Assembly: GCA_018457135.1 (NCBI GenBank)
Contig: JAGGDU010000148.1
Location: 62,001 to 126,000, forward strand
Reading direction: 5' to 3'
From: Trichodesmium erythraeum GBRTRLIN201
Lineage (GTDB): Bacteria > Cyanobacteriota > Cyanobacteriia > Cyanobacteriales > Microcoleaceae
DNA: 64,000 nt
Part shown: positions 52,123 to 64,000 of the stretch, one piece after another
Layout of the letters: each line of letters starts with the position of its first letter
Numbering within the stretch: position 1 is the stretch's first letter
Program-made: the position numbers and the translations under genes
Notes under the pieces: generated by a model
The model's database searches: none
What the model was told of the DNA's origin: nothing
The model's input: only the letters and a program-made list of their open reading frames with translations

Positions 52123-53091
52123 ATGGTTAATAAACGCAGATCACTTCCACCCTCTCTAACAATTAAATTAGGAAAATGGGTTTGGACAACCCTCTGGCAA
52201 ACAATGATGTCAAAACTTGCTCCAAGAAACAATTCAGGAGAATACATTCGCCCAGTCAGCCTATTTAGACAAACAGTAGGGATACAACCAGAGAATAAAT
52301 ATCAACCAGCTACCAAACGCTACCGCCTATTTGTTGGGCTAGGTTGCCCTTGGGCACACCGAACTATTGTAGTTAGAGCACTGAAAGGTTTGGAAGATGC
52401 TATATCAGTAACTATTGCTTCTCCAGCAGGAGATAAAGGCATTTGGGTATTTGAAGAAGAAGAAGAAGGATGCAATACTTTACCAGAATTATATAATTTA
52501 GCACAGCCTGGTTACAACGGCCGTGCCACTGTACCTGTGTTGTGGGATGAGCAAACAAAAACTATTGTTAATAATGAAAGTGCAGATATTATTGTTATAC
52601 TCAATACTGAATTTAATCACTTTGCCAAAAATTCTAATCTTGACCTTTATCCAGAACAACTAAAAGCAAAAATAGACCAGTGGAATGAAAAGATTTATCA
52701 TACAGTAAATAATGGAGTTTATCGTTGTGGGTTTGCCCAAAGTCAAGAAGCTTATGAAAAAGCTTGCCAAGAATTATTTACTACCTTAGATGAAATTGAC
52801 AATATGCTTTCTACAAGTCGATATCTTTGTGGTGAGTCAGTAACATTAGCAGATGTACGTTTATTTACTACTTTATTCCGCTTTGATATTGTTTACTATG
52901 GATTATTTAAATGTAACTTACGGAGAATTAAAGATTATAAATATTTGAGTGTTTATTTACAAGATTTATATAAACTTCCAGGAATAGCAGAGACTTGCAA
53001 TTTAGAGGCAGTGAAAAAAGATTATTATGGTAATCTTTTTCCTCTTAACCCAGGAGGTATAATTCCTTTAGGTCCAGATCTAAATAGCTAG
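52123..53091 (+). CDS. Glutathionyl-hydroquinone reductase-like (Xi-class GST)
   Basis: A 322-residue Xi-class glutathione transferase (YqjG/PcpF/ECM4 type). The active-site Cys75 lies in LFVGLGCPWAHRTIVVRALKG, the Xi-class CPWA motif. The N-terminal thioredoxin fold continues with RATVPVLWDEQTKTIVNNESADI, and the helical C-terminal domain has YRCGFAQSQEAYEKA and LCGESVTLADVRLFTTLFRFD. The enzyme reduces glutathionyl-hydroquinones with glutathione. The last part of this gene and the DNA after it are tandemly duplicated downstream. Confidence 0.92.
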   Translation: MVNKRRSLPPSLTIKLGKWVWTTLWQTMMSKLAPRNNSGEYIRPVSLFRQTVGIQPENKYQPATKRYRLFVGLGCPWAHRTIVVRALKGLEDAISVTIASPAGDKGIWVFEEEEEGCNTLPELYNLAQPGYNGRATVPVLWDEQTKTIVNNESADIIVILNTEFNHFAKNSNLDLYPEQLKAKIDQWNEKIYHTVNNGVYRCGFAQSQEAYEKACQELFTTLDEIDNMLSTSRYLCGESVTLADVRLFTTLFRFDIVYYGLFKCNLRRIKDYKYLSVYLQDLYKLPGIAETCNLEAVKKDYYGNLFPLNPGGIIPLGPDLNS

Positions 53092-53887: not shown

Positions 53888-54862
53888 ATGAAACGACTAA
53901 TTTCTCTAATTATCAGTTTACTTATTCTGATAGTAATTTACCAAAAAATTAATTTTACTGGACTCATAAAAGTATTTCAAAACTCTCACCATATATGGAT
54001 GATAATTAGCGTCAGTATGATAATTCCATTGACAATGTTAACTGCTTGGAGATTACAACAGTTAATGCCAAAAAAGGATAAAAAATTATCATCTTATTTA
54101 AATTTTGGGGAAGCAAATCAATTAATTTTAGCTGCTAGTGTATTGAATATGATTTTGCCCTCAAAAATGGGAGATATTGCTAAAGCTTATTTTATGAAAA
54201 AAAGGGGGAATTTAGAGGGAACTTTATCTTTATCTATAGTGATATTTGAAAAAGCCTGTGATTTAGTTTCTTTACTAATTTGGTGTGTTTTTGGATTAAT
54301 TGTTTATCCAGAAAAAGACTTATTATTTTGGATAATGACTACTGGAGTTACATCAGGTTTAATTATTTGCCTATTGTTATTATCATCTCGGAAATTTGCC
54401 AGAATATTTTTTCACATTGCTCGAAAATTTACGCCTAAAAAAATTAGTTCAAAAATTGATGACTTAGAAAATTCTTGGATAGAAATGCACAAATATTTTT
54501 GGCATGACAAACGACAGTTAACAAAAATTGCTGTTACCTCTATATTTATCTGGTTTGGGCATTTATCACAAATCTGGTTTTTTACTTTAGCATTAAATGC
54601 TTCAGCACCATTTGTTCAAAGTTTAGCATTATCTTCTCTAGCAATTTTAGCAGGATTATTACCTTTAACTTTTGCTGGAGTTGGTACTCGTGACGCAGCT
54701 TTTATTATGTTTTATAAACCTTATTTTTCTCAAGAAGTTGGAGCAGCTTTAGGATTACTTTGTACATCCCGTTATGTATTACCAGCAATTGCTGGTTTAC
54801 CATTTTTTGGCAAATATTTAATTGAAATGAATAAGATGAAAAGTCTCCAAAAATCTCAATAA
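53888..54862 (+). CDS. UPF0104 / lysylphosphatidylglycerol-synthase TM-like protein
   Basis: A 324-residue polytopic membrane protein of the AglD/MprF transmembrane-domain family (UPF0104, lysylphosphatidylglycerol synthase TM region). Eight or so membrane segments. Typical motifs are present: LNFGEANQLILAASVLNMILPSKMGDIAKAYFMKK (family 'R...vg...n.ilP.r.GE..R...l'), LSIVIFEKACDLVSLL, and LAGLLPLTFAGVGTRDAAFIMFY near the end. Members may translocate lipids or lipid-linked sugars; the lysyl-transfer domain of MprF is absent. It is the first gene of the same-strand membrane-protein cluster. Confidence 0.8.
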   Translation: MKRLISLIISLLILIVIYQKINFTGLIKVFQNSHHIWMIISVSMIIPLTMLTAWRLQQLMPKKDKKLSSYLNFGEANQLILAASVLNMILPSKMGDIAKAYFMKKRGNLEGTLSLSIVIFEKACDLVSLLIWCVFGLIVYPEKDLLFWIMTTGVTSGLIICLLLLSSRKFARIFFHIARKFTPKKISSKIDDLENSWIEMHKYFWHDKRQLTKIAVTSIFIWFGHLSQIWFFTLALNASAPFVQSLALSSLAILAGLLPLTFAGVGTRDAAFIMFYKPYFSQEVGAALGLLCTSRYVLPAIAGLPFFGKYLIEMNKMKSLQKSQ

Positions 54863-55144
54863 TACCAAGTTAGACTAAATATCAAAAGTATTGCTATATT
54901 TTCTTGATAATAGAGAATATAGTTAGTATTAAAGTTCATAAAAAAATTATCATTAGGCTAGGGAATAGGGTTATTATAAATAAGATAATTTCTGGCTGAA
55001 TAGTTATAATTAAATCTCGTAAAATAAAAAAAAATTATCAATTAAAATCCGGAATTATATAATATATATTAGCTTAATACCTATAATTATTAAAACATTA
55101 CTGAACCTTTTTTATAGGAGATTAATTTTGATATTTTATCTAGG
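54863..55144. other. Intergenic region, AT-rich
   Basis: Nothing recognised apart from its junction with the duplication that follows. Confidence 0.4.
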
Positions 55145-55394
55145 GTAATTCTTCTTATTTTTTGCTGGAGTTGAGGATGAAAATTCTTAGATATAAAAAG
55201 TTTCAAAATTTAGGTTTAGCAGATTTCAAATTTTTATTTAACAGGCCAATACTACCTTATTTGATTAGGGTAATTTTTCTTATTTTTTGCTGGAGTTGAG
55301 GATGAAAATTCTTAGATATAAAAAGTTTCAAAATTTAGGTTTAGCAGATTTCAAATTTTTATTTAACAGGCCAACACTACCTTATTTAATTATT
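55145..55394 (+). repeat. 125-bp tandem duplication of a gene start
   Basis: TAGGGTAATT(C/T)TTCTTATTT...ATGAAAATTCTTAGATATAAAA recurs with a 125-bp period (ATG at 55177 and at 55302) and only a few mismatches. The period is not a multiple of three, so the first copy encodes a separate 40-codon frame (55177-55299) ending in TGA two bases before the second ATG. Confidence 0.95.
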
Positions 55395-56852
55395 GCTTTT
55401 GGGGTAGCTATGAGGTTTATTCAATATTTATCTAATCGTTCTCTCTGGGCAGATGAAGCAGTTTTAGCCTTAAATATTGTCAATCGTTCTTATTTAGAAT
55501 TAATGCAACCTTTGGATTATGATCAAGGTGCGCCCATAGGTTTTTTAATAGTAGAAAAATTAGCAGTTCAGATATTAGGTAATAATGAGTATTCCCTACG
55601 TTTTTTTCCTTTTATCTGTGGTGTTTGCTCGTTGTTTTTATTCTATGAATTAGGCAAAAAATGGAGTTCTAAATCTGCTATTATTATTAGTTTGGCTTTA
55701 TTTGCTAGCCTACAATATTTAGTGTATTACTCAGCAGAAGTCAAACAATATTCCAGTGATGTAGCGATCGCTCTGCTTTTATATGTACTATTAATACCTT
55801 TGCTACAACAAAAATTGCACCGGGTTCAGATAGTTAAATATTCTCTAGTGGGAGTAACTGCTATTTGGTTTTCTCATCCTTCTATCTTTATTTTGGCAAG
55901 TTTTGGTAGTAGTGCTTTACTAATTAATTTTTGGCAGAAAGAACTCAGTAAAATCAAACAGTTATTACTCATTTATTCAGCTTGGGTTTTAAGTTTTGCC
56001 ATCTTTTATTTCCTATCTTTGATAAATTTAACGAGCAATGAAACTTTAACGACTTCTTGGGAGGATGGTTTCCCTACTTCCCCATTGGATATTATTTGGA
56101 TGCTAGACGCTTTCGGTAAATTTTTCTATAAACCCTTAGGCTTTAGCAAATGGGTTGATGGATTAGCCATTGTCGCTTTTTTAGTAGGTTGTATTTCCTG
56201 TTGGTTGAGCAGAAAAAAAATTTTGCTGCTCCTACTTTCTCCATTGTTGATGACTTTTTTAGCATCCTTTTTACATCAATACCCATTTCGGAGTCGTTTG
56301 GTTCTATTTCTCACACCATTTGTAATTTTTCTCATAGCAGAAGGCGGAAGTTATATTTTGACAAAATCTAAATTTAGACCAATTAAAATTATAACTATTT
56401 TCTTGATTATTTTATTACTCAGACAACCTTTAGTAAAAGCCATTAAATTAATAGAAAAACCTCTCAATTTATCAGAAATAAAACCTGTGTTGAGCTATAT
56501 CAAAAAAAATCAACAACCAGGAGATATTTTGTATGTCTATCAACGAGGAATATATCAGTTTCAGTATTATGCAGAAAAATATGGTTATCAAGAAGGTGAC
56601 TATATTATTGGTGTGGATGATTTAGATAAGTTTGATGGTCAAGAATTATCAATTACTGAGATGACAAGATATGAAAAAGACTTAGACAAACTGCGGGGGA
56701 ATGAAAGAGTATGGTTATTATTTTCTCATACTCATATTCCAGCAGAAAGAAGATTTTTAAACTATTATTTAAATGAAATTGGTCTCAGAATAGATACTTT
56801 TGAAAAACCTGGATCTTATGTATATTTATACGACATGAGTTACCGAAATTAG
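55302..56852 (+). CDS. GT-C glycosyltransferase-like membrane protein 1
   Basis: About 516 residues from ATG 55302; an upstream TTG at 55287 would add five. A polytopic protein with 10-12 membrane segments and the GT-C acidic pair Asp51-Glu52 in SLWADEAVLAL in the first periplasmic loop, as in PMT/ArnT-type transferases that use lipid-phosphate sugars. The next loop has YDQGAPIGFLIVEKLAV and then YSLRFFPFICGVCSL, the family's second helix pair. The C-terminal soluble part (about 400-516) is periplasmic, with ILYVYQRGIYQFQYYAEKY. Acceptor and sugar are unknown. Its start is duplicated (see repeat). Confidence 0.8.
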   Translation: MKILRYKKFQNLGLADFKFLFNRPTLPYLIIAFGVAMRFIQYLSNRSLWADEAVLALNIVNRSYLELMQPLDYDQGAPIGFLIVEKLAVQILGNNEYSLRFFPFICGVCSLFLFYELGKKWSSKSAIIISLALFASLQYLVYYSAEVKQYSSDVAIALLLYVLLIPLLQQKLHRVQIVKYSLVGVTAIWFSHPSIFILASFGSSALLINFWQKELSKIKQLLLIYSAWVLSFAIFYFLSLINLTSNETLTTSWEDGFPTSPLDIIWMLDAFGKFFYKPLGFSKWVDGLAIVAFLVGCISCWLSRKKILLLLLSPLLMTFLASFLHQYPFRSRLVLFLTPFVIFLIAEGGSYILTKSKFRPIKIITIFLIILLLRQPLVKAIKLIEKPLNLSEIKPVLSYIKKNQQPGDILYVYQRGIYQFQYYAEKYGYQEGDYIIGVDDLDKFDGQELSITEMTRYEKDLDKLRGNERVWLLFSHTHIPAERRFLNYYLNEIGLRIDTFEKPGSYVYLYDMSYRN

Positions 56853-56990
56853 AATCAAGTCTTTCCTTATCTCTATGCATCAAAAATTTTTATCCTGCTG
56901 AGATAATTGAATAATTAATCTGTACATGTATGAACAAATACATGTGGTAATTTTAGTCTTTATCAAGAGCAGGAATGAGTAATAAAAATT

Positions 56991-58754
56991 ATGTATATTC
57001 AAAAGATTAAACAAATTTTAATCCCATCAAATTATCCAAAAAAATCGTCAACAATATTCTGGCTAATTCTTAGTTTAACCTTCACAACAATCTATAGTTT
57101 ACTAGTAATTAAAGAAGCTTTTAGAGGAGAATATATAGTACAAGATGATGCCAGACAGCACGTTTTTTGGATGCGCCGTTTTTTAGATCCAGAATTATTT
57201 CCCAACGACTTAATTGCCGACTATTTTCAATCTGTTGCACCTTGGGGATATAAAACTTTTTATTGGCTATTTTCTCAAGTAGGAATAGATCCAATATTCC
57301 TAAATAAACTCTTACCTTTAGGATTAAGTTTGGTAACTACTTTCTATTGTTTTGGTCTGTGTTTTCAGATATTGCCAATACCTTTTGCAGGTTTTCTTGC
57401 CTCAGTATTATTAAGTCAAAATCTTTGGTTTCAAGATGACATCGCTTCCGGCACACCAAGAGCTTTTTTGTATCCTTTATTTTTAGCAGTTTTATACTAT
57501 TTATTGCGAAAATTATTACTTCCTTTTTTAGTAGCGATCGCTCTCCTCGGATTATTCTATCCACAATATGTTATCGTCACTGGATTAATTTTAATTATCA
57601 GAATTTTTAACTGGGAAAAGAGTCAGTTTTATCTGAGCAAAAATCCACAGCATTATCTATTTAGTGGAGTAGGTTTAGGAGTAAGCTTACTAGTAATTTT
57701 ATTTTATGTTTTAAATTCTAGTAATTATGCACCTATAATTACAGCATCCCAAGCCAAAATTTTGCCAGAATTTGGCGAAGCTGGTAGAAGTGTTTTTTTC
57801 TCACAAAATTACTGGGATTTTTTCATCCTTGGCGGTCGTAGTGGTATTCTACCTAAACAATTATTTCTGCCTCATATATTAATAGTTGGATTATTATTAC
57901 CAATACTTTTGAAAAGCAAAGAAGGGAAAAATAATAATCTTGATCATGGAATAAATTTCCCCAGACAACTTCCCTTGCTAAAACAAATAAGTCCTAATAT
58001 TAATTTATTATTTCAAATATTGTTAGCTGGCGTCGCTTTATTTGTAATAGCTCATCTTTTATTATTCAAATTACATTTACCAAGTCGTTACACAAATCAT
58101 AGTTTTCGGATAGTATTAGCCATAGGCACTGCCATTGTTTTATGTATAATTTTAGATAGATTTTTTTACTGGATAAATCAACAGTTATCCTGCCCAAAAA
58201 GAAAAATTTTAGGATTAATAATAATTGGGATTTTGGGGATTTTATTAATAAGTAATATGAGCTTATGGAAAAAAATTTCTTACCCTGATTATCAAAAAGG
58301 TAAATCCCCAGAAATTTATCAGTTTTTTGCTCAAAAACCAAAAGATATTTTGATTGCTTCTCTGTCAGAAGAGGCAAATTATATTCCTACATTTTCTCAA
58401 CGTTCCGTATTATTTGCCTGGGAATATGCTATTCCCTATCATCTTAGTTATTACAGTCAAATAAAACAACGAGCTACAGAATTTGTTTGGGCTCAGTATC
58501 ATTCAGATATTCAGTGGATGAAGAATTTTATTAATACTTATAGAATTGATTTCTTAATCTTAGACCGAGAAGCATTTATGCCAGAATATGTAATAAAAAA
58601 TCGTTGGTTGAGGCAGTGGTATTATCAAATGGGAAATCAAATTGAAATTAATCTCCAAAATGGAAAGACTCCTGCCATAGTTGACACTATAGATAAATGT
58701 TCAGTTTTAGAAACAGAAAAATTATGGGTTTTGGAAGCTAAATGTATTGAATAA
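56991..58754 (+). CDS. GT-C-like membrane protein 2, uncharacterised
   Basis: A 587-residue protein with about 11 membrane segments. The acidic pair Asp52-Asp53 lies in YIVQDDARQHVFWMRRF after the first membrane segment, the position of the GT-C catalytic motif, followed by LFPNDLIADYFQSVAPWGYK. A C-terminal soluble domain (about 460-587) contains FSQRSVLFAWEYAIPYHLSYY and RIDFLILDREAF. I know similar cyanobacterial proteins only as hypothetical membrane proteins. It starts 138 bp after the previous gene. Confidence 0.7.
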   Translation: MYIQKIKQILIPSNYPKKSSTIFWLILSLTFTTIYSLLVIKEAFRGEYIVQDDARQHVFWMRRFLDPELFPNDLIADYFQSVAPWGYKTFYWLFSQVGIDPIFLNKLLPLGLSLVTTFYCFGLCFQILPIPFAGFLASVLLSQNLWFQDDIASGTPRAFLYPLFLAVLYYLLRKLLLPFLVAIALLGLFYPQYVIVTGLILIIRIFNWEKSQFYLSKNPQHYLFSGVGLGVSLLVILFYVLNSSNYAPIITASQAKILPEFGEAGRSVFFSQNYWDFFILGGRSGILPKQLFLPHILIVGLLLPILLKSKEGKNNNLDHGINFPRQLPLLKQISPNINLLFQILLAGVALFVIAHLLLFKLHLPSRYTNHSFRIVLAIGTAIVLCIILDRFFYWINQQLSCPKRKILGLIIIGILGILLISNMSLWKKISYPDYQKGKSPEIYQFFAQKPKDILIASLSEEANYIPTFSQRSVLFAWEYAIPYHLSYYSQIKQRATEFVWAQYHSDIQWMKNFINTYRIDFLILDREAFMPEYVIKNRWLRQWYYQMGNQIEINLQNGKTPAIVDTIDKCSVLETEKLWVLEAKCIE

Positions 58755-58950
58755 GGAAAAAGGAAAAAGGAAGAAGGAAAAGTATAGTAAATAAAGTCTG
58801 ATGTATGTCAAGCTTTTAACTTTGAGACAATAGAATACTTCAACTGATAATCAATAATTAATTTAGATTTTTTTTCATATTTTTTCTCTATTATTAACTT
58901 TTTTATCCATTAATTGTAACTTCTAGATAATGGTATTAGTAACTTAAAAA
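58755..58950. repeat. Short A/G-rich repeats between GT-C genes
   Basis: GGAAAAAGGAAAAAGGAAGA right after the previous stop is a short tandem repeat. No gene. Confidence 0.5.
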
Positions 58951-60486
58951 ATGAAGCAAATACTCAAAAAAAAAATTATTATTTTCGTCTGGAAAATTTT
59001 TATCTTAGGCTTAATTTTTGGAATTTCCTATACCCAATATCCCCTATATACCTCAAACCAACATACTAAATTTTTACAAGGATTAGCCAAAGCTGGTAAT
59101 GGTTATTTAAACAAAGATTGGTTAGCCAATACATTAGACCCTCTACCTGCTTTTACTTTTTTAGTGAAAATCACTTCTACCTACTTCCATGAAAATTTTT
59201 TCTACTTTTATTACATTCTAATTTTTGGCATCTATATTTATAGTATCCTTGGCATTGCCTCAGTAATTTTTAAAATTAATAGTTCGCGAATAAAGCTCCT
59301 AATTTATTTCCTCCTGATCCTGACTATTCACTGTCTAAAAATCCGAATTTTTGACTTTAAAACTCATGTACACCTCCACTATGGTTTAGCAGACCAATAC
59401 ATTCTCGGTGGATATTTTCAACCCTGTACATTTGGAGTATTAATTATCTTTTCTATCTATACCTTTCTAAGAAAAAAACCTTTTTTAGCAGTCTTAGCTT
59501 TAGGGATAGCTGCAACTTTTCATCCCACATATCTTCCTAGTACCGCTTTACTGACTTTAGCTTACATGATCACAACTTATAAAAATGAAAAAAATCTCCA
59601 AAAATCATTATTAATAGGTACATTTTCATTCATCTTAGTTTTACCAGTAGTCAGTTATATGACTATTACTTTTCAACCTACATCTCCCGAACTTTTTCAA
59701 ATATCTGAAAGCTTGCTTGTTAATAGAATTCCTCATCATTCCTTCCCCGATATTTGGTTGACTGAACCCGCTGCTCCAACTCAAATTTTAGTAGTAGCGA
59801 TCGCTCTCTATCTTTTGTACAAAACCAGACTATTTTTTATCTTATTTTTTCCTTTTGCCACCGCAACTATTCTGACAATAACTCAAGTTTTTTCTAGTAG
59901 TAATACTTTAGCATTTCTTACCCCATGGCGCATCTCTGCTTTTTTGGTTCCTCTTTCTACTTGTATGATATTGGCTAATATTATTACTATTATTTTTAAT
60001 AAGTATCATTCTCAAATTCAGCAACACAAAAAAACCATAGAAATTTTCTCTGTCGTAGCAATATATCTGTTCATTCTTTCAGGGCTGGGAATGCAATTAG
60101 AAAAATTAACTATTAATCAGAAAGATACACCAATTATTATGGAATATGTCAAAGAAAATAAACAACCAGACGATATTTATTTAGTTCCTATAACTTCAGG
60201 TAAATTTGTTAACTTTAGAATTGCCACAGGTGCACCAATTTTAATTAATCTCAAGTCTCATCCCTATAAAGATATAGAAGTTATTGAATGGCACAACAGA
60301 TTATTAATGGCACAACAATTTTATGATAATTCTGGTATAGCTCAATGTCAGGCTTTACAGAACTTAATTGATAAATATAGAATAAATTATGTCATTATTG
60401 AAAATGAAAACTCTCTTAACTGTCTAAAAATAGAAAAAACTTATATGGATAATTTATATCAAATGTATAAAGTAACTGATAAATAA
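58951..60486 (+). CDS. GT-C-like membrane protein 3, uncharacterised
   Basis: A 511-residue polytopic protein with a first membrane segment (about 12-32) and a periplasmic loop with FLQGLAKAGNGYLNKDWLAN, where Asp is followed by Trp, a pattern seen in related uncharacterised GT-C-like proteins. Later features are HLHYGLADQYILGGYFQPCTFG and FHPTYLPSTALL, and a C-terminal soluble part with DDIYLVPITSG and INYVIIENENSL. No classical DxD or DE pair was found in the first loop, so catalysis is less certain than for neighbours 1 and 4. Same strand and spacing (196 bp) as its neighbours. Confidence 0.65.
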   Translation: MKQILKKKIIIFVWKIFILGLIFGISYTQYPLYTSNQHTKFLQGLAKAGNGYLNKDWLANTLDPLPAFTFLVKITSTYFHENFFYFYYILIFGIYIYSILGIASVIFKINSSRIKLLIYFLLILTIHCLKIRIFDFKTHVHLHYGLADQYILGGYFQPCTFGVLIIFSIYTFLRKKPFLAVLALGIAATFHPTYLPSTALLTLAYMITTYKNEKNLQKSLLIGTFSFILVLPVVSYMTITFQPTSPELFQISESLLVNRIPHHSFPDIWLTEPAAPTQILVVAIALYLLYKTRLFFILFFPFATATILTITQVFSSSNTLAFLTPWRISAFLVPLSTCMILANIITIIFNKYHSQIQQHKKTIEIFSVVAIYLFILSGLGMQLEKLTINQKDTPIIMEYVKENKQPDDIYLVPITSGKFVNFRIATGAPILINLKSHPYKDIEVIEWHNRLLMAQQFYDNSGIAQCQALQNLIDKYRINYVIIENENSLNCLKIEKTYMDNLYQMYKVTDK

Positions 60487-60575
60487 CCTCTTGCTTAAAA
60501 CCACTTTTAACTTCCTTATCTGTGCATCCGTTGGAAAATTATTGTGGTGCATTCCTACTCAAATTTAATTAAAAA

Positions 60576-62174
60576 ATGTTCCAACAAAAACCTTATTTTA
60601 CTTGGTTAAAAATCTTTATTGCCATCATCCTAATCTTAGGAATATGTTTCAGATTTATCAATATTGACCAGAAAGTTTACTGGTTCGATGAAACAATTAC
60701 ATCCTTAAGAATTGTTAGTTACACCAGGGGAGAACTTGAAGACCTACTCTCAAACGACGGAACTATTACCGTCGAAAAATTACAGAAATATCAAGAAATT
60801 AATCCTCAGAAAAACACAATTAATATTATCAGCTCTCTAGCTAAAGATAATCCTGAACACTTACCAATTTATTTTGTACTTTTGAGGTGGTGGGTAAAAT
60901 TATTCGGTAATTCTGTCACCGTAATTAGAAGTTTTTCAGCCATAACAAGCTTACTCATTTTTCCCTGTACTTATTGGCTATGTCGAGAATTATTTAGCAA
61001 CTCATTAGTAGGATGGATAGCAATTTCTCTCACAGCAGCTTCCCCAATTTTAGTATTATATTCCCAGGAAGCACGAGCTTATACTCTTTTTTCCCTAGTT
61101 ATTTTACTATCCAGTATTGCCTTACTTCAAGCAATAAGAATTAATACGAAACGTAGCTGGAAAATTTATATTGCAAGTCTCATTTTTGCTTTATATACTC
61201 ATCTCTTTTCTGTATTAGTAGCCCTTGGTCATGGATTATATGTAATCCTGATTGAAAAATTTAAACTAACCCAAAAATTAAAAGCTTATTTACTAGCCTC
61301 TTTCTGGGGATTTTTAGGATTTTTACCTTGGCTTATATTGATAATTAATCATTTTGAAGGCATTGGTTGGGTCTCCAAAGATTTACCTTTATCCAGTTTG
61401 TTCAAAAGATGGTTTATCAATCTTGGTTTTACATTTTTTGATATTCAAATTGGTTCCTCTGAGAGATTATTTGATGTGAAAAAACTAGTTTTTGATAATC
61501 ATGCTTTGTTACAATTAAATACTATCTGGCCCTATATCTTGGGATTGATTTTAGTATTAGTTATTTACTCTATTTATTTCCTCCTAAAAAATGCACCTCG
61601 ACGGGTAACTATATTTATCTTAACCTTAATGGCAGTTACCCCAATATGTTTAATAATTCCTGACTTAATATCTGGAGGGCAACGTTCTACTATTCCTCGT
61701 TATTTAATTCCAGCTTACCTAGGAATTCAATTATCTGTAGCTTTTTTATTAGGAACAAAATTGACTAACTTTACTAATAAAATCGAACATAAATTTTGGA
61801 AAATAGCAACTGTAGCTCTCATTTCTTTGGGTATTATATCTTGTGGTATTAGTTCTCAAGCTGAGACTTGGTGGAATAAATATAGTAGTTATTATGATGG
61901 GGAAGTAGCTAGAATAATTAATCAAACAAACAAACCTCTTATTATTAGTAATTATTCCGTAAGATTAGCTACTCTCGGGTATATGTTGAGACCTGATGTG
62001 GAAGTTTTATTCATTGAAGAACCGAAAGTTCCTACAGTTCCAAAAGGTTTCACTGATGTATTTGTATTTCGTCCTCCATGGAGTTTAATTTCTGGATTAG
62101 AAATACAAGAAAATTCTCGAATGGAGTTAGTTTATAATCCTGGGGAACTTTGGATTTTAAATCAAAGTAAGTAA
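60576..62174 (+). CDS. GT-C glycosyltransferase-like membrane protein 4 (GT39/ArnT-like)
   Basis: A 532-residue polytopic protein. The acidic pair Asp38-Glu39 in KVYWFDETITSLR is a typical GT39/ArnT first-loop motif. The second loop holds NPEHLPIYFVLLRWWVKLFG and VTVIRSFSAITSL. TASPILVLYSQEARAYTLF is a highly typical ArnT/PMT-type segment (SP...xYSQEARxYxL). C-terminal soluble part with RPDVEVLFIEEP and LELVYNPGELWIL-like ending. This is the clearest glycosyltransferase of the cluster. It lies 89 bp after the previous gene. Confidence 0.85.
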   Translation: MFQQKPYFTWLKIFIAIILILGICFRFINIDQKVYWFDETITSLRIVSYTRGELEDLLSNDGTITVEKLQKYQEINPQKNTINIISSLAKDNPEHLPIYFVLLRWWVKLFGNSVTVIRSFSAITSLLIFPCTYWLCRELFSNSLVGWIAISLTAASPILVLYSQEARAYTLFSLVILLSSIALLQAIRINTKRSWKIYIASLIFALYTHLFSVLVALGHGLYVILIEKFKLTQKLKAYLLASFWGFLGFLPWLILIINHFEGIGWVSKDLPLSSLFKRWFINLGFTFFDIQIGSSERLFDVKKLVFDNHALLQLNTIWPYILGLILVLVIYSIYFLLKNAPRRVTIFILTLMAVTPICLIIPDLISGGQRSTIPRYLIPAYLGIQLSVAFLLGTKLTNFTNKIEHKFWKIATVALISLGIISCGISSQAETWWNKYSSYYDGEVARIINQTNKPLIISNYSVRLATLGYMLRPDVEVLFIEEPKVPTVPKGFTDVFVFRPPWSLISGLEIQENSRMELVYNPGELWILNQSK

Positions 62175-62579
62175 TAAACATAAATAATTTAAGTATTCAG
62201 CTGAATGCTAGAAACTAACATAACTTTTTTGATGATTATTACCCCAAGAATGTGTTAATTATTCTTCGGTTGTAGGAAGGTTTCATGGCAAGTTTCTACA
62301 TAAATATTCAGGTTTCAGTTATCAGCTATCAAAAAGGAAAAAATTAGCCTCCAAGAAAAATTAAAAGTCCGCACAAAAAAGATGATCAGCTAAACTTAGT
62401 AACAGGATTTTACAGTCAAAATTCAGTACTCTTTTAATATACTTCTCTGGAAACTAAGTTTTAGCCTATTAAATTTAAATGTTTGAGATGAATTTGCGGA
62501 GGGGTCTAATAGAAAAAAATGCATAATTTTTAAATTTAAATGTTTGAGATGAATTTTCAGAGGGGTCTAATAGAAAAAA
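62175..62579. other. Intergenic: duplicated leader of the next gene
   Basis: Besides the duplication at 62471-62590 only AT-rich DNA is present. Confidence 0.5.
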
Positions 62580-62590
62580 ATGCGTAATTT
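62471..62590 (+). repeat. 61-bp tandem duplication of a leader and start codon
   Basis: AAATTTAAATGTTTGAGATG (62471) recurs at 62532, through GAGGGGTCTAATAGAAAAAA and the ATG. Copy 1 has an ATG at 62519 with a frame of only four codons before TAA (62531-62533). Copy 2 provides the ATG at 62580 of the gamma-glutamyltransferase gene. Confidence 0.95.
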
Positions 62591-64000
62591 TCATAAACCC
62601 GAAAGATCAGAAGTGTTTTCACAGAATGGAATGATAGCAACTTCTCATCCTCTAGCTGCCAAAATTGGTCTTGATACCATGTCCCATGGAGGGAACGCCA
62701 TAGATGCTGCCATCAGCGCCGCTTTGATGCTCACCTTATGTGAACCACAAAGTACCGGGCTCTACGGCGATGCCTTTGTCATTTTAAAATCCCAAAAAAG
62801 TGATAAACTCATTGGAATAAACGGCTCCGGGAACTCCCCCAAGGCAATATCTAGTGATCTGCTCCTCCAAAAAGGCTTGAATAAAATTCCCATTAACAGC
62901 GTGCATTCAATTACACTTCCAGGAGCTGTAGCCTTATTTGAGGAATTAGCTCTTAAATTCAGTAATTTAGGGTTAGCAGAATTATGTAAAGCATCTATTA
63001 AATACGCCGAAGAAGGAGTAGTAGTCAGTCCTAGAGTGGCTTTTGACTGGCGCTTAAATAATTTGAAATTTTCTCAAACCACCAAAAAATTCTACTTGGT
63101 TGATGGTAAAGTGCCTGAAACTGGGTCAATTTTTAGAGCTCCAAAGCAAGCGGAAGTTTTGAGAAAAATCCAAAAAAATGGCTCAAAAGGGTTTTATCAG
63201 TCTGAGGTTACAGAAGATCTTGTTAAGTCTTTACAAAACTTGGGGGGAGTTCACACTTTAGATGATTTTGCTAACGTGACATTTGAATATGTAGAGCCAA
63301 TTTTCTCCAATTTTCAAGATGGAAGTAAATTATTTGAGCTGCCTCCTAATGGGCAAGGTATAACTGCTATCATGATCCGGAAACTCATGGAAATTTGCAA
63401 CATTCAAGAACATTCTCCATATTCTGCTAACAGGGTACACTTAGAGGCAGAGATCGCAAAGCTTGCATATACTGCCAGAAATGCTTTTATTGGAGATCCT
63501 AAGTTTTCCCAAATTAAAGAACACTTCTTTTTAGACTCAGCTTTTCTGGAAAAAATTGCTCAACAAATATCTCTCAACAAACTAATAGATGGAAGCGGCA
63601 TCCAATATTTTGATGAAAAACCAAAAGATACCGTTTTAATATCTGCTGCAGATAAAGACGGAAACGCTATCTCTTTAATTTTTTCAAATTTTGATTCGTT
63701 TGGTACTGGAAAATGCTCTGAAAAATACGGTCTCATTTTTCATAACCGCGGAGCTAGTTTTGTTCTTGAGAAAAACCATCCTAATGAACTTGAAGGAAAT
63801 AAAAGACCCTTGCATACTATCATACCTGCTATTTTTAAAGGTAAAAATGACATGATCATGGCTTTTGGGGTTATGGGTGGAGACTACCAACCTTATGGTC
63901 ATGCTCGCATTCTTAGTAATCTTTTTGACTACAGTATGGACCCGCAGTCAGCAATAAATTTTCCCAGAAGTTTTTTCTTTAACGGGGTTTTAAAACTAGA
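62580..64000 (+). CDS. ggt: Gamma-glutamyltransferase, 3'-truncated by window edge
   Basis: An open frame from ATG 62580 to the window end (473 codons visible). It reads NGMIATSHPLAAKIGLDTMS, then HGGNAIDAAISAALMLTLCE, QSTGLYGDAFVIL, and PPNGQGITAIMI, the order of the Ntn-hydrolase GGT family. The predicted autoprocessing nucleophile is Thr351 in KDTVLISAADKDGNAISLI (TTHxSVxDxxGNAV pattern, with T-V instead of T-T). Cyanobacterial GGTs split glutathione or gamma-glutamyl compounds. No signal peptide is seen, so it may be the cytoplasmic YwrD-like type. Coding GC is noticeably higher than its neighbours, hinting at transfer. Confidence 0.88.
   Translation, partial: MRNFHKPERSEVFSQNGMIATSHPLAAKIGLDTMSHGGNAIDAAISAALMLTLCEPQSTGLYGDAFVILKSQKSDKLIGINGSGNSPKAISSDLLLQKGLNKIPINSVHSITLPGAVALFEELALKFSNLGLAELCKASIKYAEEGVVVSPRVAFDWRLNNLKFSQTTKKFYLVDGKVPETGSIFRAPKQAEVLRKIQKNGSKGFYQSEVTEDLVKSLQNLGGVHTLDDFANVTFEYVEPIFSNFQDGSKLFELPPNGQGITAIMIRKLMEICNIQEHSPYSANRVHLEAEIAKLAYTARNAFIGDPKFSQIKEHFFLDSAFLEKIAQQISLNKLIDGSGIQYFDEKPKDTVLISAADKDGNAISLIFSNFDSFGTGKCSEKYGLIFHNRGASFVLEKNHPNELEGNKRPLHTIIPAIFKGKNDMIMAFGVMGGDYQPYGHARILSNLFDYSMDPQSAINFPRSFFFNGVLKL

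Follow-up and report, generated by a model that had tools for sequence, protein, structure and literature searches.

A UPF0104-centred gene cluster with candidate GT-C glycosyltransferases in Trichodesmium erythraeum

Described systems and the P1-P5 cluster

Multi-component transmembrane glycosylation is known from several systems, namely GtrA/GtrB/Gtr*, CsbB/GtcA/YfhO and a pentofuranose system with a GT136 enzyme. As outlined in the accessible portions of the corresponding papers, three kinds of component work together in them: the synthase of a polyprenyl-phosphate sugar, a GtrA-, Wzx- or MATE-type flippase, and transferases of the GT-C class (PMC8035078, PMC11127046). Here, these systems are compared to a cluster of five membrane-protein genes (P1 to P5, Table 1) from the cyanobacterium Trichodesmium erythraeum GBRTRLIN201. 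The cluster is located on a stretch of 64,000 nucleotides, further called the window (assembly GCA_018457135.1, contig JAGGDU010000148.1, positions 62,001 to 126,000), of the 7.2 Mb host genome (G000). The ingredients resemble those of the described systems: a putative synthase, a flippase candidate and GT-C-type proteins, which have low sequence similarity from system to system, with PMT_2 proteins among the latter. The cluster differs from the systems as presented there in that a UPF0104 protein replaces GtrA, Wzx or MATE, several GT-C genes are present per cluster, the putative synthase gene is unlinked in this genome and P3 matches no curated family. From their sequences, P1-P5 would form a UPF0104-centred GT-C module that fits the multi-component kind of glycosylation, with the UPF0104 protein as flippase candidate. 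Their probable role is in the assembly or modification of a glycan on the cell surface.

The second point of comparison is archaeal. In the part of the source available, the conserved neighbourhood of AglD (arCOG00899) is described as comprising UPF0104, PMT/STT3-like and AglD-like GT2 proteins, and flippase activity is thought likely by its authors for the whole COG0392 family (PMC5898192). The same three protein types are found around the cyanobacterial P1 genes, where the GT2 is nearest to the AglJ model (under its cut-off) and, in the PDB, to a dolichol monophosphate mannose synthase. However, GT2 and UPF0104 are fused in AglD and separate here, the host is a bacterium, and several GT-Cs are present. 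In Pseudomonas aeruginosa, gpgF is a UPF0104 gene for a putative flippase, located beside glycolipid synthesis genes (PMC12713373).

No paper on the P1-P5 locus or on a cyanobacterial GT-C family was recognised among open-licence papers, which is no proof of absence.

P3, a cyanobacterial family with a predicted GT-C fold

The P3 family was studied from an alignment of 37 sequences, comprising the P3 of the window and 36 of its 72 homologues. To arrive at these, 42 homologues were kept (non-redundant, shorter than 660 aa), after which L052:9425, L067:10061, L076:8574, L080:4521, L089:8592 and the fragment L095 were omitted. In Pfam and NCBIfam, none of the 37 rows has a credible family: four unrelated models were each matched by one row (E 0.00036 to 0.0083), PMT_2 was not matched, and no OST (oligosaccharyltransferase) family of Pfam was matched by any row at E ≤ 0.01. 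Neither the P3 protein nor its 37-sequence profile found a PDB chain at E ≤ 1. Because the PDB sequence searches gave no useful match, the evidence on the fold rests on predicted models.

The P3 model, built from the 37 sequences, has a predicted local distance difference test score (pLDDT) of 92.0 and a predicted template modelling score (pTM) of 0.91. Foldseek returned 25 matches at E ≤ 0.001, all of them GT-C enzymes or OST/translocon entries (the matching chain of the latter being read as STT3). In the VIA comparison, the catalytic chains of OST came out on top (8b6l_I: Z 20.4, root-mean-square deviation (rmsd) 5.0, 494 residues), followed by Pmt4 (Z 19.1, 358 residues), AftA (Z 17.1) and ArnT (Z 14.9). 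The C-terminal part (residues 435-584) matches the globular domain of AglB (3vu0: Z 9.2, rmsd 3.0, 130 residues). The predicted fold of P3 is clearly a multi-helix membrane GT-C fold. Calling the model 'OST-like' rather than 'PMT-like' is only a preference, because the OST and Pmt matches are about one Z unit apart.

The nearest fold to the P3 model is that of the GT66 oligosaccharyltransferases (STT3, PglB and AglB), and the likeness extends over the membrane domain as well as the C-terminal one. In contrast to GT66, no sequence relationship was detected in the above searches, P3 is multicopy, and the WWD string is missing from 36 of the 37 rows, the P3 of the window included. The single row with WWD (L070) has it at residue 278 of 584, outside the C-terminal domain. 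A further likeness exists to the mycobacterial arabinosyltransferases AftA/AftD/Emb, in whose pathway several GT-Cs share one lipid-phosphate sugar; the structural likeness is to AftA, and the profile searches of the PDB gave no sequence match.

Within the alignment, D53, D73, H355 and R366 are invariant (37/37 rows). The first of these belongs to the QDDARQ motif, where the preceding D52 is found in 35 of the 37 rows. The motif follows a helix (residues 18-43), and judging from the fold its loop would be the first extracytoplasmic one. A relationship of P3 to P5 was rejected by profile comparison (probability 2.4%).

A separate observation concerns a loop around residues 310-335 of P3, where the pLDDT drops to 55 (residues 311-320) and 67 (residues 321-330). 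Its length varies among eight P3 orthologues from the group of the host and its near relatives. Between the same anchors, this loop has a short form of 49 aa in the window and in L041, and measures 74 aa in L044, 117 in L045, 218 in L046, 194 in L049, 136 in L050 and 70 in L052. An in-frame repeat of 93 bp (31 aa) is found in the loop, with 5.8 copies in L046:9546-10088 and 4.9 copies in L049:10426-10883. In L084:8158-9101, the 5' part of a P3 paralogue is present three more times, upstream of the full copy.

P4, a DUF6798 protein

P4 matches PF20604 (DUF6798) with 49.1 bits (cut-off 26.9). DUF6798 is found in all 15 rows of its alignment, which was made from the P4 of the window, 7 of the 11 homologues from cyanobacteria and 7 of the remaining 9 (L110 and L116 were omitted as they lack a whole frame). 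No DUF6798 paper was found in the open-licence literature. PMT_2 is not matched by P4, and all that its profile retrieved from the PDB was a regulator of no apparent relation, with a weak score (E 0.97). The profiles of P4 and P3 do align, with a probability of 95.0% over 456 columns (hhalign).

The P4 model (15 sequences, pLDDT 87.2) was matched by Foldseek to the yeast OST chain 8agb_A (E 2.7e-4), with AftA at rank 2. In VIA, the best Z was 13.2, close to the value of about 13 at which the tool advises caution when proteins are helical. All 45 rows shown with Z ≥ 8.0 are GT-C-fold entries, including PIG-U, which we take to be one of them. More weakly than for P3, the model indicates a GT-C fold for P4, with matches in the same enzyme class. 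Predicted folds unlike GT-C had been named in the sequence-only reading as a refutation; the outcome, clear for P3 and weaker for P4, does not refute it.

In the first loop of P4 the consensus is TSNQNT, with N36 in 14 and Q37 in all 15 rows; Q37 was paired with D53 of P3 by reading the two alignments side by side rather than by structural superposition. D56, H191, R259 and R327 are invariant in 15/15 rows. Since N36-Q37 stands at the first-loop acidic site, P4 may be a non-catalytic GT-C protein. PIG-U in the glycosylphosphatidylinositol (GPI) transamidase offers an analogue for such a role.

P4 also exists outside the P1-P5 cluster. Relatives with 30-39% identity occur beyond the cyanobacteria, in Chloroflexota, one Catalimonadaceae and one Gemmatales record. 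By BLAST (E ≤ 1e-4), none of P1, P2, P3, P5, GT2 or c14 (a partner gene, see below) was found in these nine loci (L110-L118; in L110 the gene caller kept no P4 frame). The invariant first-loop glutamine is shared by the DUF6798 proteins of L111-L115, L117 and L118. The P4 orthologue of G012 (L046:11861-13597) carries an in-frame insertion that resembles a translated heptamer repeat.

P2 and P5, the PMT_2-type proteins

P5 scores 36.2 bits against PMT_2, above the Pfam gathering cut-off of 26.1, whereas P2 stays below it with 21.1 bits. Nevertheless, PMT_2 is matched at E ≤ 0.01 by 7/7 rows of the P2 alignment (the window's P2 and all six homologues), and in a profile comparison P2 was aligned to P5 over 177 columns with a probability of 91.3%. 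Searches of the PDB with both profiles gave no match at E ≤ 1. PMT_2 or ArnT-type enzymes (GT39, GT83) are therefore represented in the cluster by P5 and, under the cut-off, by P2, unlike P3 and P4 with no such match.

The acidic pairs that had been pointed out in the sequence-only reading (WADEAV in P2, QDDARQ in P3 and WFDETI in P5) are present and conserved. In P2, D56 and E57 are invariant in 7/7 rows, as is R337, which says little as six of the seven rows share 81-100% identity with the P2 of the window. In P5 (the window's protein and 10 of 14 homologues), D38 and E39 are invariant in 11/11 rows, as are R375 and Y376. The segment of ArnT/PMT type is likewise found in P5, as SPILVLYSQEARAY, with E165 and R167 invariant in 11/11 rows. 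The view of P2-P5 as four GT-C-like proteins holds clearly for P3, by family for P5 and more weakly, by model, for P4, with the corrections that P2 has a sub-threshold PMT_2 score and that P4 lacks the acidic pair. As for proteins 2 and 3, for which that reading knew of no annotation, P3 has no credible family and P2 a sub-threshold PMT_2 match.

P1 and its partner genes

P1 matches PF03706 with an E-value of 3.7e-38 (132.1 bits, Pfam gathering cut-off 33.4) and TIGR00374 with 71.2 bits (cut-off 43.2), and it is the single PF03706 match found in the host genome. The models HpnL, MprF and GlcN_PG_flip are matched as well, but weakly and far under their cut-offs, and no further domain was reported by the Pfam and NCBIfam searches. 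From this family membership, we infer that P1 is a candidate flippase of lipid-linked sugars. For GtrA (PF04138), no match was found in the host genome by a search that does detect it in 7 of 14 control genomes, with a cyanobacterium among these. As a side note, extra P1 3' ends are repeated in L049:1184-1782.

Sixty stretches of homologue loci were requested, covering part of the P3 matches, and further stretches were fetched around P1. In ten fetched loci a GT2 of type a is located near P1 (L051, L054, L056, L064, L069, L119, L120, L123, L126 and L130), and in 6/10 a protein of about 530 aa (c14) is encoded between the two. Three other loci (L048, L058 and L063) have a GT2 of type b near P1. 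G063 (L130) has GT2a, c14, P1, P2 and P3 directly next to each other in the same orientation. The best PDB match of GT2a is 5mlz, a dolichol monophosphate mannose synthase (3.5e-16), and ArnC is matched as well (1.1e-9); its best NCBIfam model is AglJ, under the cut-off. What recurs more widely is a core of GT2, c14, UPF0104 and P3, together with P5 or P2. The host genome has c14 as well (G000:C112:26418-27998, 71% identical), away from the window.

c14 itself is conserved beside GT2a and UPF0104 (L051:5387-6979 and relatives). Searches of Pfam and NCBIfam (E ≤ 0.01) and of the PDB (E ≤ 1) returned nothing for it; judged by eye, c14 may be a carbohydrate enzyme of the alpha-toroid type.

Gene order and distribution

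The order P1-P5 is found on one contig in five genomes: the present one and G012, G023, G027 and G030. In G001, one contig ends with P1-P2-P3, and another starts with P4-P5, followed by the downstream gene. The occurrence of the five genes in the same order in relatives is more than chance. All five genes together were encountered solely within the Trichodesmium/Okeania group, some genomes of which do not have the complete set. Subsets are more widespread: P3 and P4 lie within 1.3 kb of each other in 8/13 genomes with P4 (G000, G009, G011, G012, G013, G023, G027 and G030), and P1 lies within 9 kb of P3 in at least 16/33 genomes with P1. The latter number is a lower bound, given that contigs are short. 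The linkages and the presence/absence sets were compiled by hand. Random placement would give about 1% per genome in a rough model with 3 P3 copies and 6.5 Mb. Short or overlapping gaps are found in the loci L063, L058 and L054 of relatives.

Among 79 genomes, P1 was found in 33, P2 in 15, P3 in 53, P4 in 13 and c14 in 42. P3 is present in 31 of the 33 genomes with P1, and c14 in exactly these 31; the remaining two (G007 and G076) have completeness values of 55% and 61%. All 15 genomes with P2 also have P1. P5-like proteins occur in 74/79 genomes, a count that refers to the broad PMT_2 family and not to orthologues. These counts are relied upon here, as the Fisher tests take no account of relatedness among the genomes and their p-values are too small. 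A single genome of this set can have as many as 10 P3 matches when pieces are included. Across the phylum, the P3 profile found members in 34/292 sampled genomes and 25/116 genera. P3 copies without P1 occur in many of the fetched loci.

It was considered whether the P1-linked P3 genes form one orthologous group. This was rejected, as they are spread over the P3 tree, where the loci were starred by hand (L052_17519 only because its locus holds P1).

Proposed mechanism and alternatives

In the best explanation, to which we give a probability of roughly 0.55, the proteins would function jointly. A GT2, encoded elsewhere in the host genome, would synthesise a polyprenyl-phosphate sugar at the cytoplasmic side of the membrane, and P1 would move it across. 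At the outer side, P2, P3 and P5 would then act as transferases for this sugar, with at least one acceptor, for instance a surface polysaccharide, lipopolysaccharide (LPS) or protein. P4 would either be a transferase that has diverged or assist as a GT-C protein without catalytic activity. P1-P2 may be the basic part, to which P3-P4-P5 is an added block that can be lost. The flipping, the donor, the transfer, the acceptor and the joint action are deduced from what could be observed, namely the homologies, the predicted folds, the gene order and the presence or absence of the genes.

A number of observations weigh against this explanation. In G012, G023, G027 and G030, the gaps reach up to kilobases and opposite-strand frames of 109-381 aa are located between P2 and P3, with smaller ones also between P3 and P4 in G023, G027 and G030, which speaks against a single operon in these genomes. 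In G005, of the same genus, the corresponding locus (L127:419-5082) consists of the end of a GST-like (glutathione-S-transferase-like) gene, P1, P2 and the downstream gene. P3, P4 and P5 were not found on this contig by tblastn, the block having been lost or never gained, and P1-P2 can thus be retained without P3-P5. In the other 17/33 genomes with P1, no P3 frame was found in the 6-20 kb around P1 (many of these contigs are short), and P3 occurs without P1 in 22/79 genomes, the g11 genomes included. The scatter of the P1-linked genes over the P3 tree belongs here too, as do several P3, P4 or P5 pieces with stops in G010 and G056. In the host genome the GT2a orthologue (G000:C22, 74% identical) is unlinked to the window. 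Finally, a first-loop acidic pair was not found in P4, where adjacent acids within residues 26-110 occur in 1/15 rows. Because of the intervening frames and the G005 locus, the probability of the joint function was lowered from about 0.60 to its present value. As to conserved synteny, one of the checks named by the sequence-only reading, the order does recur in four other genomes, but with kilobase gaps, and G005 lacks P3-P5. The neighbourhood is thus conserved in part, which does not refute that reading. Its idea of a joint glycan-modification set is partly supported, with this neighbourhood and the predicted GT-C folds on its side, but the full set was observed only in the Trichodesmium/Okeania group and P4 is also found elsewhere.

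The product could instead be a modified membrane lipid, with P1 flipping a glycolipid or phospholipid that the GT-Cs elongate or decorate. Members of UPF0104 act, or are proposed to act, on phospholipids, as stated for MprF in the available text of PMC5898192, and the proposed flippase GpgF of P. aeruginosa is encoded beside a GT4 GlcN-PG (glucosaminyl phosphatidylglycerol) synthase according to the accessible part of PMC12713373. The weak matches of P1 to HpnL, MprF and GlcN_PG_flip point in the same direction. We nevertheless hold this to be unlikely: the recurring partner of P1 and c14 is a GT2 resembling dolichol monophosphate mannose synthase and not a GT4 lipid synthase, and no further domain was reported on P1. 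More unlikely still is a lack of any joint function, where each GT-C would belong to a separate pathway and the cluster would be a collecting place for membrane glycosyltransferases. The retention of P1-P2 without P3-P5 in G005 and the other frames between the genes in four genomes have raised its probability slightly, and it would also account for P4 in loci without another recognised cluster gene, for the P5-like proteins in most genomes (again the broad PMT_2 family) and for the many fetched P3 copies without P1. It is opposed by the linkage of P1 and P3, far above the expectation for random placement, by the short or overlapping gaps in L063, L058 and L054, and by the coupled presence and absence of P1 with P3, P2 and c14.

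Alternatively, P3 might be an OST-like enzyme that moves a whole lipid-linked oligosaccharide, built by P2 and P5, onto protein. Its best structure matches are indeed STT3, PglB and AglB (Z 20.4 to 18.0, 456-498 residues), and its C-terminal part resembles the AglB globular domain. However, P3 has no sequence match to a PDB chain at E ≤ 1, the WWD string is present in just one row and not in the C-terminal domain, and Pmt4 follows closely in the structure comparison. P3 also reaches up to 10 matches per genome (pieces included), which would be unusual for an OST. This alternative is considered improbable, the most so of those discussed here.

A more far-reaching version of the joint function can also be formulated. 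In this version, P3 would found a new cyanobacterial GT-C family with an OST-like fold, and the cluster would work as an assembly line for a glycan: the sole UPF0104 protein would feed one lipid-linked sugar to several GT-Cs, P4 would be a catalytically dead partner, P3-P4-P5 would be a losable decoration block, and the P3 of Okeania would have diversified by the in-frame repeat array in its loop, whose length varies. Taken as a whole this is doubtful, and it is offered as a speculation.

Gene layout of the window

The coordinates are given in Table 1. As the sequence-only reading had described, the five membrane-protein genes are consecutive and on the same strand, with the last four 89-196 bp apart. 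The individual gaps are 424 bp (P1-P2), 138 bp (P2-P3), 196 bp (P3-P4) and 89 bp (P4-P5), and no other frame of at least 100 aa is found between these genes in the window. Above the Kyte-Doolittle threshold, 5, 9, 10, 8 and 10 hydrophobic segments were counted in P1 to P5, respectively.

Table 1. Features of the P1-P5 cluster in the window.
Feature	Position	Strand	Size	Description
P1	53888-54862	+	324 aa	UPF0104 / LPG_synthase_TM membrane protein
P2	55287-56852	+	521 aa	Divergent membrane protein of PMT_2-like GT-C type; start more likely at the ATG of 55302
P3	56991-58754	+	587 aa	Predicted GT-C-fold protein, unclassified cyanobacterial family
P4	58951-60486	+	511 aa	DUF6798 membrane protein, distant P3 relative, predicted GT-C-like fold
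P5	60576-62174	+	532 aa	PMT_2 (GT39/ArnT-like) GT-C glycosyltransferase
Tandem duplication	55141-55390	+	125 bp	Copies 55141-55265 and 55266-55390, 98% identical

The cluster is flanked upstream by a glutathione-S-transferase-like gene (52123-53091) and downstream by a gene starting at 62580, which was read by eye, without a family search, as a gamma-glutamyltransferase. On separate promoters, named by the sequence-only reading as a refutation, a scan for promoter-like sites was uninformative (51 on both strands, 50.5 expected). The same scan placed one terminator-like site on the plus strand, inside P3, and none between the genes. The 125-bp tandem duplication spans the start region of P2, which leaves a truncated copy of the P2 5' end just upstream. 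Another tandem duplication, of 61 bp (62469-62591), lies over the start of the downstream gene.

Significance

To our knowledge, the enzymes that assemble the sheaths and other surface glycans of filamentous cyanobacteria are largely unknown. P3 would represent an unnamed GT-C family that is tied to UPF0104, in a genome where GtrA was not found. Genomes of the G005 type, with P1-P2 but without P3-P5 at the same place, provide a natural comparison. The cluster may thereby serve as a test case for a bacterial UPF0104 protein as flippase of polyprenyl-phosphate sugars, a role that has been proposed from archaeal neighbourhoods in the available part of PMC5898192.

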